From Planotetraspora silvatica (lineage in GTDB: Bacteria > Actinomycetota > Actinomycetes > Streptosporangiales > Streptosporangiaceae): a stretch of 64,000 nucleotides of DNA. A program made the translations under genes and the position numbers. Below are positions 2,251 to 55,840 of the stretch, piece by piece (within the stretch, counting starts at the first letter, position 1; every line of letters starts with the position of its first letter). Below the pieces are notes generated by a model. The model ran no database searches. It was not told the origin of the DNA and saw only the letters and a list, made by a program, of their open reading frames with translations. Where the stretch lies: assembly GCF_016863315.1 (NCBI RefSeq), contig NZ_BOOQ01000026.1:1-64000 (forward strand), written 5' to 3'.

Positions 2251-2895
2251 ATGGCCGTCACGATGCCCGACGATCTTCGCCGCCTCGCCGAGGAGGCGAG
2301 GGGTTTCATGCCGCCCGCCGAAGGGCTGGCGCTGTTCGAGATCGCCGCCCAGTACGGCTCCCGCGGCCCGATCTGCGAGATCGGCACCTACTGCGGCAAG
2401 TCGGCCGTCTATCTGGGCGCGGGCGCGCGGGAGGCGGGCTCGGTGGTGTTCACCGTCGACCACCATCGCGGCTCCGAGGAGATCCAGCCGGGCTGGGAGC
2501 ACCACGACGCCGACCTGATGGACCCCCGCTTCGGGAAGATGGACTCATTGCCGTTCTTCCGGCGGACCATCGCGGAGGCCGGGCTGGAGGACGAGGTCGT
2601 CGCGGTCGTGGGCGCCTCGGCGGCGGTGGCCCGATTCTGGACCACGCCACTGGCGATGCTCTTCATCGACGGCGGCCATTCCGAGGAGCCGGTCACGAGG
2701 GACTACGAGGGATGGGCACCCCACGTCCTGGTGGGAGGGGTCCTGGTGTTCCACGACATCTATCCCGACCCGGCCATGGGTGGCCAGGCTCCGTACCGCG
2801 TCTACCTGCGCGCGCTGGCCTCCGGAGCCTTCAAGGAGACCCGAGTGGTGGGCTCCCTCCGCGTCCTCGAACGCACCACCCCCTCCTTCGCGTGA
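2251..2895 (+). CDS. Class I SAM-dependent methyltransferase (Methyltransf_24 type)
   Basis: 214 aa. Motif I is [16 protein letters not shown] near residue 40, followed by VFTVDHHRG (acidic loop after strand 2), an [12 protein letters not shown] strand and [13 protein letters not shown]. These are typical of O-methyltransferase-like proteins found beside glycan genes. The ATG at 2251 has AGAGGGA upstream. It is divergent from the PPOX operon, sharing the 2064-2250 intergenic region. The stop TGA (2893-2895) is part of the GTGATC core of the first unit of repeat array 2892-3156. The acceptor substrate cannot be told from sequence. Confidence 0.8.
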
Positions 2896-3156
2896 TCATG
2901 CACAGGTTCGGCGACACGCCGTCCTGCCTGCGCATCCTTCCCCCGTGATCATGCACAGGTTCGGGCACGTGCCGTCCCACCTGGGTGAACCACGAGCGTG
3001 ATCATGCGCGGACTCGCGCACGTGCCGTCCCACCTGGGTGAACCGCGAGCATGATCATGCGCGGATTCGCGCGCACGCCCGATGACCTGCGGCTCGGCCG
3101 TACGTGATCAGGCAACCAGGCGATCACGCGATCACGGCGATCACGCGTGAGTGCGA
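2892..3156 (+). repeat. 53-bp phased repeat array A, rightward, five units
   Basis: Units start at 2892, 2945, 2998, 3051 and 3104, exactly 53 bp apart. Each begins GTGATCATGC; the first two continue CACAGGTTCGG. A second conserved box, ACCTGSG, lies near unit position 35-41. The fifth unit is degenerate and runs into short GCGATCACG repeats at the end of the next gene. The array begins at the stop codon of the upstream methyltransferase gene and lies between two convergent genes. Confidence 0.9.
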
Positions 3157-4218
3157 TCAGGCGTGAGCGCGCTCGCACCCGCACTCGCCGGTGATCCGCA
3201 CCTGCTGGCTCCCCGCGTCGCGGAAGACGCCGGACCCGGGAGTGGTCCGCGAAAGGGCGTCGGCCGCGAGGATCACCGCGGCCGCGGTGTAGCCCGATCG
3301 CTCGTGCGGGAAGTGCTTGCCGTTCACGAACTGCCAGCCGGTCCAGTAGGACCCGTCCTCGTGCCGCAGATGCTGCATGTCCGCGAACACCGTCAGCGCC
3401 CGCTCGTCGTCCCCGAGCGCGTCGAGGGTCATGACCAGCTCGCACGACTCGGCCCCGGTGACCCACGGCTGATCGGACACGCAGCGCGCGCCGAGTCCGG
3501 GGACCACGAAGGTGTCCCACTCCAGATCGAGCCGCTGGACCGCCTGTGGGCCCCGTACGGCGCCACCCAGGATCGGGTAGTACCAGTCCATCGAGAAGCG
3601 GCTCTTGTCCGCGAACGCCTCGGGGTGCGCCGTCAGCACGTGCGCCAGCCGGTCGGCCGCCAACTCCCAGTCGGGTTGCGGATCGCCCAGCCGTTCCGCG
3701 AGCAGCACGCCGCAGCGCAGTCCCTGGTGGATGGACGAGGAGCCGGTGAGCAGGGCGTAGGGGGCGGGCTCGCCGGCGGTGTCCCGCTCCCACACGATCT
3801 CGCCCCGGGTGGTCTGGAGGTCGACGACGAAGTCGAGGGCCTTGGTGACCACGGGCCACATCGACCGGGCGAATTCCATGTCGCCCGTCACGAGGAGGTC
3901 GTGCCAGACGCCCACGGCGACGTAGGCGGCGTGGTTGGACTCCCCGCCCGTCTCGGCGGCCTCTCCGCCGACGAGCTTCATCGGCCAGGAGCCGTCGGGA
4001 CGCTGGTGCCGTACGAGCCAGTCGTAGCCCCTGCGCGCCTCGTCGTGGAGCCCGGCCACGGTGAGGGCCATCAGACACTCGATGTGGTTCCAGGCGTCGA
4101 CGTGACCCTCAGGCCAGGGGATGCCGCCGGTGGCGTCCTGGACCGCGGCGATGCTCCGCGCCGTCTGGACCACCTGCTCGGCGGTGATGACCCCCGGGAC
4201 GGACGGCGCCGCCGTCAT
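3157..4218 (-). CDS. (alpha/alpha)-barrel terpene cyclase/prenyltransferase-like protein in a glycan gene cluster
   Basis: 353 aa, mostly helical, with repeated helical hairpins such as DAWNHIECLMALTVAGL, RGYDWLVRHQRPDGSW, ESCELVMTLDALGDD and HEDGSYWTGWQF. The QRPDGSW-type repeats are shared by squalene cyclase and prenyltransferase-like toroids and by six-hairpin glycosidases. I do not see a decisive DxDD catalytic motif, so the activity is open. The C-terminal tail has a CGCE pair. The start ATG overlaps the stop of the upstream methyltransferase by ATGA, so the two are translationally coupled in a leftward operon. A role in building or trimming a polysaccharide or lipid-linked glycan is inferred only from the neighbours. 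Confidence 0.6.
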   Translation of the reverse strand: MTAAPSVPGVITAEQVVQTARSIAAVQDATGGIPWPEGHVDAWNHIECLMALTVAGLHDEARRGYDWLVRHQRPDGSWPMKLVGGEAAETGGESNHAAYVAVGVWHDLLVTGDMEFARSMWPVVTKALDFVVDLQTTRGEIVWERDTAGEPAPYALLTGSSSIHQGLRCGVLLAERLGDPQPDWELAADRLAHVLTAHPEAFADKSRFSMDWYYPILGGAVRGPQAVQRLDLEWDTFVVPGLGARCVSDQPWVTGAESCELVMTLDALGDDERALTVFADMQHLRHEDGSYWTGWQFVNGKHFPHERSGYTAAAVILAADALSRTTPGSGVFRDAGSQQVRITGECGCERAHA

Positions 4219-4937
4219 GCGGGCTTCCGGACGTAGACCACCACACTCTTCCCGATCAGAGGGTTGAGCACGGCTTCCGCGATCCGGGTGGCGGCGGGGC
4301 GCTTCATGATGTCCCACACCAGGAGTTCGTGGTACGCCTTGGCCAGCGGGTGGCCGTCGTTGTTCACGCCGACCGCGCATTTGATCCACCAGTACGGCGA
4401 ATGCAGCCCGTGGGCGTGATGGTGCGGTCCGACCTCGAGGCCGGAGGACTTCAGCTTGGCCTGGAGCTCCGCCAACGTATAAATCCGGATATGTCCGCCA
4501 GGCGCTGTGTGGTAGTCCTCGGAAAGGGCCCAGCAGATGCGCTCGGGGATGAAGTTCGGGACCGTGATGGCCGCCTGTCCGCCCGGCTTGAGGACCCGGA
4601 CGATCTCTCGCATGGCGGCCATGTCGTCGGGGATGTGCTCGAGGATCTCGGCGGCGATGACGCGGTCGAACGACGCGTCGGGGAACGGCATGCCGAGCGC
4701 GTCGCCGACGACCGTCTCCCCGGTGGCCCCTGCGGGGATCTGCCCTTCCTTGTCCATCGCCGCGAACATCGCGGCCACGCCCTCGAGCTCGGCGGCGTCC
4801 ATGTCGAAGGCGACCACGTCCGCGCCCCTGCGCAGCACCTCGAAGGCATGCCGGCCCGCGCCGGCGCCGAGATCGAGAACGCGGTCACCCGGTCCGACGG
4901 GCAGCCGATCGAAGTCGACGGTCAGCACTCGCGCCAC
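4215..4937 (-). CDS. Class I SAM-dependent methyltransferase (Methyltransf_11)
   Basis: 240 aa. SAM motif I is VLDLGAGAGRHAFEVLRRGA near residue 20, then VVAFDMD as the acidic strand 2, a FPDASFDRVIAAEILEHIPD post-I region, and VLKPGGQAAITVPN as motif III. The GTG start at 4937 has GAAAGG just upstream. The stop overlaps the next gene's ATG (4216-4218). It lies between the GT4 gene and the barrel protein, and a methyltransferase acting on a glycan or lipid glycoside is likely. The promoter side carries an 18-bp-spaced direct repeat (4941-4972). Confidence 0.85.
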   Translation of the reverse strand: MARVLTVDFDRLPVGPGDRVLDLGAGAGRHAFEVLRRGADVVAFDMDAAELEGVAAMFAAMDKEGQIPAGATGETVVGDALGMPFPDASFDRVIAAEILEHIPDDMAAMREIVRVLKPGGQAAITVPNFIPERICWALSEDYHTAPGGHIRIYTLAELQAKLKSSGLEVGPHHHAHGLHSPYWWIKCAVGVNNDGHPLAKAYHELLVWDIMKRPAATRIAEAVLNPLIGKSVVVYVRKPA

Positions 4938-54884: not shown

Positions 54885-55726
54885 TGAAGATCTATGTGTC
54901 GGTGGACATGGAGGGTGTCTCCGGCCTGACCGATCCCGAGGAGATGCACGCCGGAGGCCGGGGCTACGAGCGCGGTTGCGAGCTGATGACCGGCGACGCG
55001 AACGCCGTCGTCGAGGGAGCCTTCGACGCCGGCGCCGACACGGTGCTGATCAACGACGCGCACGGGTCGACCAAGAACCTCAGGATCGATCTGATAGACC
55101 CGCGGGCCTCGCTGATCAGGGGGCCGGGCAAGCCGCACCGGATGGGGCAGGGCCTGTCGGGCGACTTCGCCGCGGCCTGCTTCGCCGGATATCACGCCCG
55201 GGCCGGTGTCCAGCACGGGGTGCTCAACCACACGTGGATGGGCAAGGAGATCCACGACGTCTACCTGAACGGCGAGATCTGCGGCGAGATACGCCTGGTC
55301 GCCGGCCTCGCGGGTTCCCTCGGAGTGCCCGTGGTCGTCGTCACCGGCGACGAGGCGGCGTGCGAGGAGGCTCGGGACCTGCTCGGCGACGTCGAAACGG
55401 TCGCCGTGAAGAAGGGGATCGACAGGTTCTCGGCCGAACTGCTGCCGCCGGGCGTCGCCCAGGCCCGCATCCGTGCGGCCACCGCCCGGGCGCTCGGCCG
55501 CCTGTCCGCCTTCCGTCCCTACGTGGTGAGCCCGCCGTACACGCTGGGTGTGGAGTGGAACTCCACCGACATCGCGGCGGGCTGTGCGATCGTCCCCGGG
55601 ACCCGGTTGGTCGGGCCGAGGCACACCGAGTTCACCACAGACGACTATTGGGACATCATGGCCCTCTTCGGTATCTTCGCCACCATCGCCGGCCGGATCG
55701 CATGCGGCAGCGGGGTGTACGGCTGA
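54884..55726 (+). CDS. M55-family metallopeptidase (D-aminopeptidase DppA-like)
   Basis: 280 aa. Zinc ligands are in YVSVDMEGVSG (D8, E10), INDAHGSTKNL, GYHARAGVQHG and VVTGDEAACEEARD. DppA is a decameric D-aminopeptidase acting on D-Ala dipeptides. It starts at ATG 54884 with GGGAG upstream (GTG 54881 is an alternative); either way it is coupled to the PP-loop gene. The coupling of a D-peptidase to an ATP-pyrophosphatase-like enzyme is unusual. Confidence 0.85.
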   Translation: MKIYVSVDMEGVSGLTDPEEMHAGGRGYERGCELMTGDANAVVEGAFDAGADTVLINDAHGSTKNLRIDLIDPRASLIRGPGKPHRMGQGLSGDFAAACFAGYHARAGVQHGVLNHTWMGKEIHDVYLNGEICGEIRLVAGLAGSLGVPVVVVTGDEAACEEARDLLGDVETVAVKKGIDRFSAELLPPGVAQARIRAATARALGRLSAFRPYVVSPPYTLGVEWNSTDIAAGCAIVPGTRLVGPRHTEFTTDDYWDIMALFGIFATIAGRIACGSGVYG

Positions 55727-55732
55727 CCGCTG

Positions 55733-55840
55733 TGCATGATCACGTAACGCGTTGAGGCCGGTCGAATCTGGAAGGTTTGCATGATCACGCTTGCCGATGT
55801 GGCGGGTGGGACGGGATGTGCGAATTGCATGATCGCGTCC
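55733..55840 (-). repeat. Degenerate 53-bp-type repeat array H, leftward, three units
   Basis: Minus-strand cores at 55743, 55788 and about 55836 (the last GATCGC), spaced 45 and 48 bp, so the usual phase is eroded by small deletions. It lies between the M55 gene and the amine oxidase gene. Confidence 0.75.

Follow-up and report, generated by a model that had tools for sequence, protein, structure and literature searches.

Phased 53-bp repeat arrays behind genes of Planotetraspora silvatica and related genera: candidate sites for a sequence-specific DNA-binding protein

Introduction

Several kinds of short repeat are known from intergenic DNA or from the ends of genes. Repetitive extragenic palindromes (REP) and bacterial interspersed mosaic elements (BIME), which come with RAYT transposases, are dispersed and extragenic, lie near gene 3' ends and avoid the regions between divergent genes. 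In the neisserial intergenic mosaic elements with dRS3 repeats, a short fixed repeat flanks several spacers of about 50 bp. Mycobacterial interspersed repetitive units (MIRU) are intergenic tandem repeats of actinobacteria that overlap stop codons, and one class of them is near 53 bp in length. In eukaryotes, RNA polymerase is halted by the TTF-I Sal-box and Reb1 roadblock terminators, protein sites that are repeated shortly after the ends of genes; they are polar and best known at rDNA. The subject of this study is a family of intergenic repeats with the core GTGATCATGC, phased at 53 bp, in a 64-kb stretch of Planotetraspora silvatica DNA (the whole stretch analyzed, hereafter the window). 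We propose that the arrays are sites for a predicted sequence-specific DNA-binding protein at gene 3' ends, probably a barrier that replaces hairpin terminators. Protein binding is the likely part of this proposal and the barrier role the best of several readings; the proposal as a whole is held at slightly less than even confidence.

The arrays share features with each of these systems. Like REP and BIME, they are extragenic, biased toward 3' ends and rare between divergent genes, and inverted pairs of the core in other genera resemble BIMEs, but the Planotetraspora unit shows no hairpin and five of the six array-bearing genomes tested gave no match to a Y1 transposase. A short fixed repeat around spacers of about 50 bp also characterizes the dRS3 elements; here, however, the spacer contains a conserved box and has a fixed length, and the repeat and the taxon are unrelated. 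Compared by description alone, MIRUs have the intergenic tandem arrangement, the length of about 53 bp and the overlap with stop codons in common with the arrays, which differ in their hundreds of cores, their short fixed core with a drifting linker and their cross-genus dialects. The Sal-box and Reb1 sites, repeated just past genes, are a model for how the arrays might act, although no polarity was seen in the arrays and their protein is a postulated one.

The nearest published pattern that we met is that of the DNA uptake sequences (DUS) of Neisseriaceae, which have dialects, contain UGA in all dialects but one, form inverted pairs linked to terminators and commonly occur within genes (PMC3630211). 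As in that account, a short 10-12-mer occurs here in about 1000 or more copies, with lineage dialects, terminator-linked inverted pairs and a stop codon within the motif (PMC3630211). DUS as described there have a dedicated DNA-binding protein, ComP, whose counterpart is hypothetical here; unlike DUS, the arrays are almost exclusively intergenic, are phased direct repeats of 53 bp and carry a second box. No earlier description of this repeat was found in the literature searched, as judged by title or start of abstract, and among the matches listed, none of the papers containing the core string or its complement concerned actinomycete repeats by title.

Abundance and geometry of the repeat

The window contains 37 exact copies of GTGATCATGC, 19 on the (+) strand and 18 on the (-) strand, in nine clusters; after shuffling of the window (20 times), the mean was 0.0 copies per strand. 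An earlier note on this DNA, made from its letters, had described a 53-bp repeat family in nine places, and the family was found where the note had put it. It is larger than noted: the genome of P. silvatica (G000, 8.66 Mb) contains 998 exact cores (498 on the + strand and 500 on the - strand), compared to 0 for a reversed-pattern control, and neither of the results that the note had named as refuting it, random spacing or a local duplication in the window, was obtained. Same-strand neighbours no more than 400 bp apart were separated by exactly 53 bp in 71 of 81 cases in the window plus 400 kb of the same genome; 76 congeneric loci (not de-duplicated), drawn from Planotetraspora mira, P. kaengkrachanensis and P. 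phitsanulokensis, gave 292 of 324.

The Planotetraspora unit consensus, built on 126 first and 275 inner units (401 in all), consists of GTGATCATGC (positions 1-10), ACAGGTTCG (11-19, with 13-15 variable), a drifting stretch (20-32), TGACCTG (33-39, box 2), a weaker aaC-C (45-48) and a C at position 53. The second conserved box that the note had placed at 35-41 as ACCTGSG is in register with box 2. Its view that the rest of the unit has drifted holds for positions 20-32 and the linker but not for positions 11-19, which are also conserved. The leader upstream of an array is rich in C (positions -16 to -3 are 57% C in P. silvatica and 56% in G085, a genome of another genus), and the final core of an array lacks GTTCG.

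The distance from box 2 to the next core was 21 bp in 381 of 404 53-bp units of Planotetraspora, in 43 of 43 units of G001 and in 51 of 68 units of G085. Changes of 1 bp in unit length lay mostly in the linker; of 18 units with a length of 52 bp, the missing base was before box 2 in 11 and after box 2 in 5. Given the constant 21-bp step and the places where the 52-bp units lost their base, TGACCTG-N14-core-tail behaves as a nearly rigid module, and about 13 bp of linker separates one module from the next. Mutual information among the 401 units peaked between adjacent positions, and weaker distant signals (e.g., 24-48 and 36-40) showed no marked excess of complementary bases, which speaks against RNA pairing.

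CRISPR was considered and rejected on a test of the spacers, as the note had anticipated: the linkers share a box and a consensus, and the identity of randomly chosen units over positions 20-53 is 44-46%. No cas gene was present among the ten open reading frames (ORFs) of the window scanned with Pfam.

Conservation within Planotetraspora

Five Planotetraspora genomes (G000 to G004) were compared, of which G004 is the closest relative of P. silvatica and G001 the most distant. For the 16 loci in 224 kb of P. silvatica, at least two cores were present at the same place in 13 of the 14 loci with usable flanks in G004, 7 of 7 in G003, 9 of 9 in G001 (one in the opposite orientation) and 4 of 11 in G002. 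The number of units varied between species mostly by whole units; array D of the window, for example, has three units in G000, G003 and G004 and is reduced to a bare core in G002.

Cores of orthologous units were nearly invariant while their linkers diverged. Between P. silvatica and G004, changes numbered 2 of 420 at positions 1-10, 3 of 168 at positions 16-19, 24 of 293 in box 2, 94 of 545 in the linker and 0 of 170 in terminal cores. The corresponding counts were 0 of 168 in the core and 61 of 220 in the linker for G003, and 0 of 140, 69 of 176 and, in terminal cores, 5 of 99 for the distant G001. These comparisons omit units with more than three gap positions (16 for G004, 10 for G003, 47 for G002 and 19 for G001) and loci without usable flanks; the P. 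silvatica loci were picked by their intact cores, so core changes on that side are under-counted and those in the relatives are not.

G002 showed 18 changes in 90 core positions and 31 in 117 linker positions, and 47 of its 56 units could not be aligned. Its intergenic cores numbered 17 in 184 kb, compared to 81 in 224 kb of P. silvatica and 77 in 186 kb of G004. From these sequence comparisons, this species seems to be eroding its arrays, some of which are still intact; no substitute for the array core was found in the 184 kb searched.

The recognition sequence itself differs in G001, where 30 of 39 cores with a TTC tail read GTGATCATGCAGAAGTTCG. Position 12, a C in P. silvatica, is a G in 12 of 14 aligned orthologous units, although positions 20-53 of these units are still orthologous (identity of 0.637, compared to 0.440 for random pairs); this alignment, too, omits units with more than three gap positions and loci without usable flanks. 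Between P. silvatica and its most distant congener, the dialect has switched in place. Change at many loci without replacement of units is what would be expected from an altered trans-acting recognition factor.

Dialects and inverted pairs in other genera

When 250 genomes of the family were searched for pairs of GTGATCA 43-73 bp apart, more than 80 per strand were detected only in the five Planotetraspora genomes, in G085 and, on one strand, in G241; the other genomes had 0-23 per strand. The 81 forward matches of G241 to the spaced pattern, with 1 reverse match, probably come from one local tandem array. In a GlgB comparison of 31 genomes, which did not include g55, G085 represented the nearest other genus (90% identity); its commonest dialect is CACAGGTTCC. 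A search for GTGATCKTGC in the 250 genomes found the same arrays in genus g55 (85 + 106 in G109 and 14 + 24 in G060) and genus g86 (26 + 29 in G209 and fewer in G238, G143, G216 and G222), with the consensus tails AGattCTCGCA and AGTTTGTCGCA. Box 2 of these two genera starts at position 33, and its distance to the next core is 21 bp in 18 of 19 (G109) and 18 of 20 (G209) 53-bp units. In 389 kb of G109, all 38 cores were intergenic, and the seven array loci comprised four convergent, two tandem and one divergent. The 53-bp frame and box 2 are common to four genera of the family (g1, g80, g55 and g86), each lineage with its own dialect. The note had read the constant unit length as possible selection for one DNA face, and the retention of the frame and of the 21-bp step from box 2 to core in four genera despite their different dialects supports selection for a fixed DNA geometry, as does the confinement of most 1-bp changes to the linker.

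Elsewhere in the family, the core occurs as inverted pairs of 34-58 bp, with GTGATCATGC in genera g25, g69, g71 and g72 and GTGATCTTGC in g63, numbering 7 to 48 in the richest genomes. The arms matched beyond the 10-bp core, which was itself in the search pattern, in 40 of 47 pairs from five other genera, by up to 23 bp. Sampled pairs were mostly 30 bp or less from a gene in g69 and g71 and mostly farther away in g25. The GTGATCATGC inverted pair was present in 48 of 345 genomes of the order and the GTGATCTTGC pair in 3 of 296 genomes of the class, all three in this family; a further GTGATCTTGC pair lies behind glgB of G037, from a neighbouring family. The GTGATCTTGC hairpin overlaps the glgB stop codon both in G037 (L284) and in G076, from another genus (L286). 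In G028 (L300, L309, L310, L311 and L314), inverted-pair elements of 49 bp recur two or three times per stretch, 223-499 bp apart, with pyrimidine-rich left flanks and purine-rich right flanks.

These comparisons bear on the strongest rival explanation, a selfish or mobile repeat of the REP/BIME kind, in which a recombinase or transposase recognizes the core and seeds or amplifies units, and gene 3' ends are the least harmful place for insertion. Variation by whole units between species and collapse to a bare core are what such an element would show, and harmless insertion also predicts the avoidance of divergent regions described below. Ten gene pairs that were reciprocal best matches between G085 and P. 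silvatica (some only 45-49% identical) had an array on one side in four cases and on both sides in none. Dead insertions, however, should decay evenly, which is nearly the case in G002 but not in the other orthologous arrays, where cores are intact while linkers diverge; a pure copying mechanism, which the note had offered as an alternative, does not explain this pattern either. Dialects that change in place also speak against a selfish repeat. The REP-type Y1 transposase (PF01797) had no match in G000, G002, G003, G004 and G085; the array-bearing genome G001 had four. An origin from phages, plasmids or viruses was rejected as no match was found in viral contigs (searched for an exact GTGATCATGC pair at 52-53 bp) or in plasmids and phages (searched with array G). 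We consider the selfish explanation unlikely on balance. The note had not recognized the repeat as REP or BIME, which agrees with the transposase result in five of six genomes and with the hairpin-free unit but fits less well with the inverted pairs of other genera.

Position relative to genes

Position was surveyed in contigs C26 (224 kb) and C2 (420 kb) of P. silvatica and in 400 kb of a G085 contig, which contained 16, 14 and 35 array clusters, respectively, with genes predicted by our own codon-usage gene finder. The 65 loci with usable neighbours comprised 27 between convergent, 35 between tandem and 3 between divergent genes. The share expected from gap space is 16-17% for convergent and 25-26% for divergent regions (p about 1e-6 for the convergent excess and 1e-5 for the divergent deficit). 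Of 65 scored ends, 16 had an outermost core that overlapped the stop codon at exactly -4, with the TGA of GTGATCA as the stop. Two-sided loci were oriented + then - in 24 of 26 cases in a 59-locus set, both exceptions involving a single core, and in 27 of 27 when arrays of two or more cores only were counted. The close association with stop codons and the scarcity between divergent genes point to a role at gene ends. Autoregulation through a divergent array was considered; no convincing candidate was present among the genes next to two of the three divergent loci. One G085 neighbour of a divergent locus resembles a LysR-type regulator by eye.

The note had suggested a nucleoid, silencing or anchoring protein as one possibility. 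Sites phased on the same DNA face and scattered over many clusters would suit chromosome-architecture, silencing or anchoring sites for a nucleoid protein, but the tight link to stop codons does not, and the spacing between loci had no consistent regularity (coefficients of variation of 1.08, 0.59 and 1.06 in the three stretches). No direct support for this role emerged, and we regard it as improbable.

More doubtful still is a signal for DNA uptake or self-recognition, spread by molecular drive as in Neisseriaceae, with inverted pairs placed secondarily in terminators. Such a signal would be in keeping with the roughly 1000 copies of a 10-mer, the lineage dialects, the intergenic inverted pairs, the stop codon in the motif and the one species with fewer, decayed copies. 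Uptake guided by DUS is not known to us from these actinomycetes. Cores, however, were nearly all intergenic (81 of 90 and 77 of 84 in P. silvatica and 77 of 83, 17 of 19, 67 of 68 and 119 of 135 in other stretches, leaving 9, 7, 6, 2, 1 and 16 inside predicted genes), whereas DUS are commonly intragenic (PMC3630211), and neither 53-bp arrays nor a second box is needed for uptake.

Hairpins at array ends

Where a convergent gene end had an array at its stop codon, the median hairpin energy was -17.1 kcal/mol (z vs. shuffles of -0.28; n = 38), compared to -27.1 kcal/mol (z of -1.37; n = 134) at array-free convergent ends (p = 2e-4). The p values per stretch were 0.001 (C26), 0.03 (C2) and 0.07 (G085). 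A z below -2 was reached by 16% of array ends and by 40% of array-free convergent ends. By this measure, array ends do not show the stable hairpin past the stop codon of an intrinsic terminator, and their weaker hairpins suggest that arrays stand in for hairpin terminators.

The idea that the transcribed array is an RNA element, a signal for 3' untranslated region processing, stability or termination, draws on the position of arrays directly past stop codons with a C-rich leader, but it is very improbable given the lack of pairing covariation in 401 units, the lack of an Rfam match at gathering score in the window, the weaker structure than at other convergent gene ends, the antisense orientation of 10 of 23 one-sided arrays between tandem genes and the inverted-pair cores of other genera, which make duplex DNA the form common to all.

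A possible barrier at gene ends

The shared frame of four genera, the constraint on the core, the switch of dialect in place, the convergent and stop-codon placement and the weak hairpins at array ends support the proposal that the arrays are sites for a sequence-specific DNA-binding protein acting as a barrier. One module, about 40 bp long, is TGACCTG-N14-GTGATC(A/T)TGC, then a stretch specific to the lineage and a tail centred on TCG (TCC in G085). Linkers of about 13 bp join modules into the 53-bp repeat, about five helical turns, and so put the sites on one DNA face, where the putative protein would cover the array cooperatively. The complex would then most likely be a barrier or insulator against readthrough from one convergent or tandem gene into the next, at gene ends of the kind that in many other cases have a hairpin. 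Other genera of the family have the same core as an inverted pair.

Several observations weigh against this proposal. No cognate protein was found for the arrays. One-sided arrays between tandem genes were co-directional with the upstream gene in 13 cases and opposite in 10, which argues against polar or RNA-level action, and no polar action is visible in them. The arrays are no general terminator since, of the genes in the stretches surveyed, only 24 of 189, 19 of 354 and 43 of 328 had an array no more than 150 bp from their 3' end. When whole convergent gaps were compared with 80 array-free gaps, the best hairpin was not significantly different for 14 one-sided (p = 0.14) or 13 two-sided (p = 0.09) loci. 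The G085 subset taken alone gave the p of 0.07, and just 40% of array-free ends reach the z below -2. Hairpins were not regularly gained where arrays were lost (medians of -20.9 with 0-1 cores, n = 7, and -22.6 with three or more, n = 45). The core alignments were also anchored on the cores themselves.

A bolder version, which we regard as possible but rather unlikely, is a hairpin-free gene-end system of a single actinomycete family, in which a dedicated DNA-binding protein polymerizes on 53-bp arrays behind stop codons as terminator or insulator, protein and sites having coevolved into dialects, perhaps from an inverted-pair element. If true, these bacteria would mark gene ends by phased protein arrays rather than RNA hairpins, with a recognition code that shifts by lineage. 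Natural experiments would then be at hand in a species that is seemingly losing its arrays, in one whose dialect differs and in those genera of the family that carry inverted pairs.

Arrangement of the arrays in the window

Phased cores of arrays A to G follow one another in the 53-bp steps that the note had called exact, apart from one 42-bp step in the (-) half of array F and out-of-phase core-like copies in arrays D (25444) and E (26852). The (-) strand carries arrays C and E as well as the second half of both F and G; two cores of array A and one of array F are mutated. Array A (2892..3113, +) has five cores, the fourth and fifth being the mutated ones, and the TGA stop of the predicted gene at 2173-2895 lies within its first core. 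A degenerate short tandem of GATCACG/GATCAGGCG at 3104-3171 extends past this array. The four cores of array B (7574..7742, +) start 16 bp past the stop of a gene ending at 7557, and the three cores of array C (8838..8953, -) are downstream of a (-) strand gene with its stop at 9037.

Array D (25373..25541, +) has four phased cores in addition to its core-like copy. A predicted ORF (25001-25429) upstream of a thiolase-like gene crosses the first unit and terminates in the second core; in G002, the same frame seems, by eye, to stop at a TGA shortly past the bare core. Array E (26755..26923, -), also with four phased cores and a core-like copy, is downstream of a (-) strand gene whose stop is at 26963. 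Short tandem repeats adjoin the outer ends of arrays C (8950-9016; 19 bp x 3.5) and E (26918-26964; 16 bp x 2.9).

Arrays F and G are two-sided. The (+) half of F (31923..32038) has three cores, 22 bp past a stop at 31900, and is faced by five cores on the (-) strand (32053..32263), among them the mutated core and the 42-bp step. Array G has three cores in its (+) half (36664..36779) and five in its (-) half (36795..37016), the outermost of which contains the stop of glgB (37013-39157, -). Two further groups had been noted as eroded copies at 48046-48190 and 55743-55836; their phasing is lost (steps of 144, 45 and 48 bp), but their cores are intact or nearly so. They comprise two isolated (+) cores 144 bp apart (48046..48199) and three (-) cores, two exact and one with one mismatch, at steps of 45 and 48 bp (55734..55836). 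A 71-bp repeat in 1.9 copies at 47661-47795 lies mostly in a stretch without a syntenic match in G001, G002 and G004.

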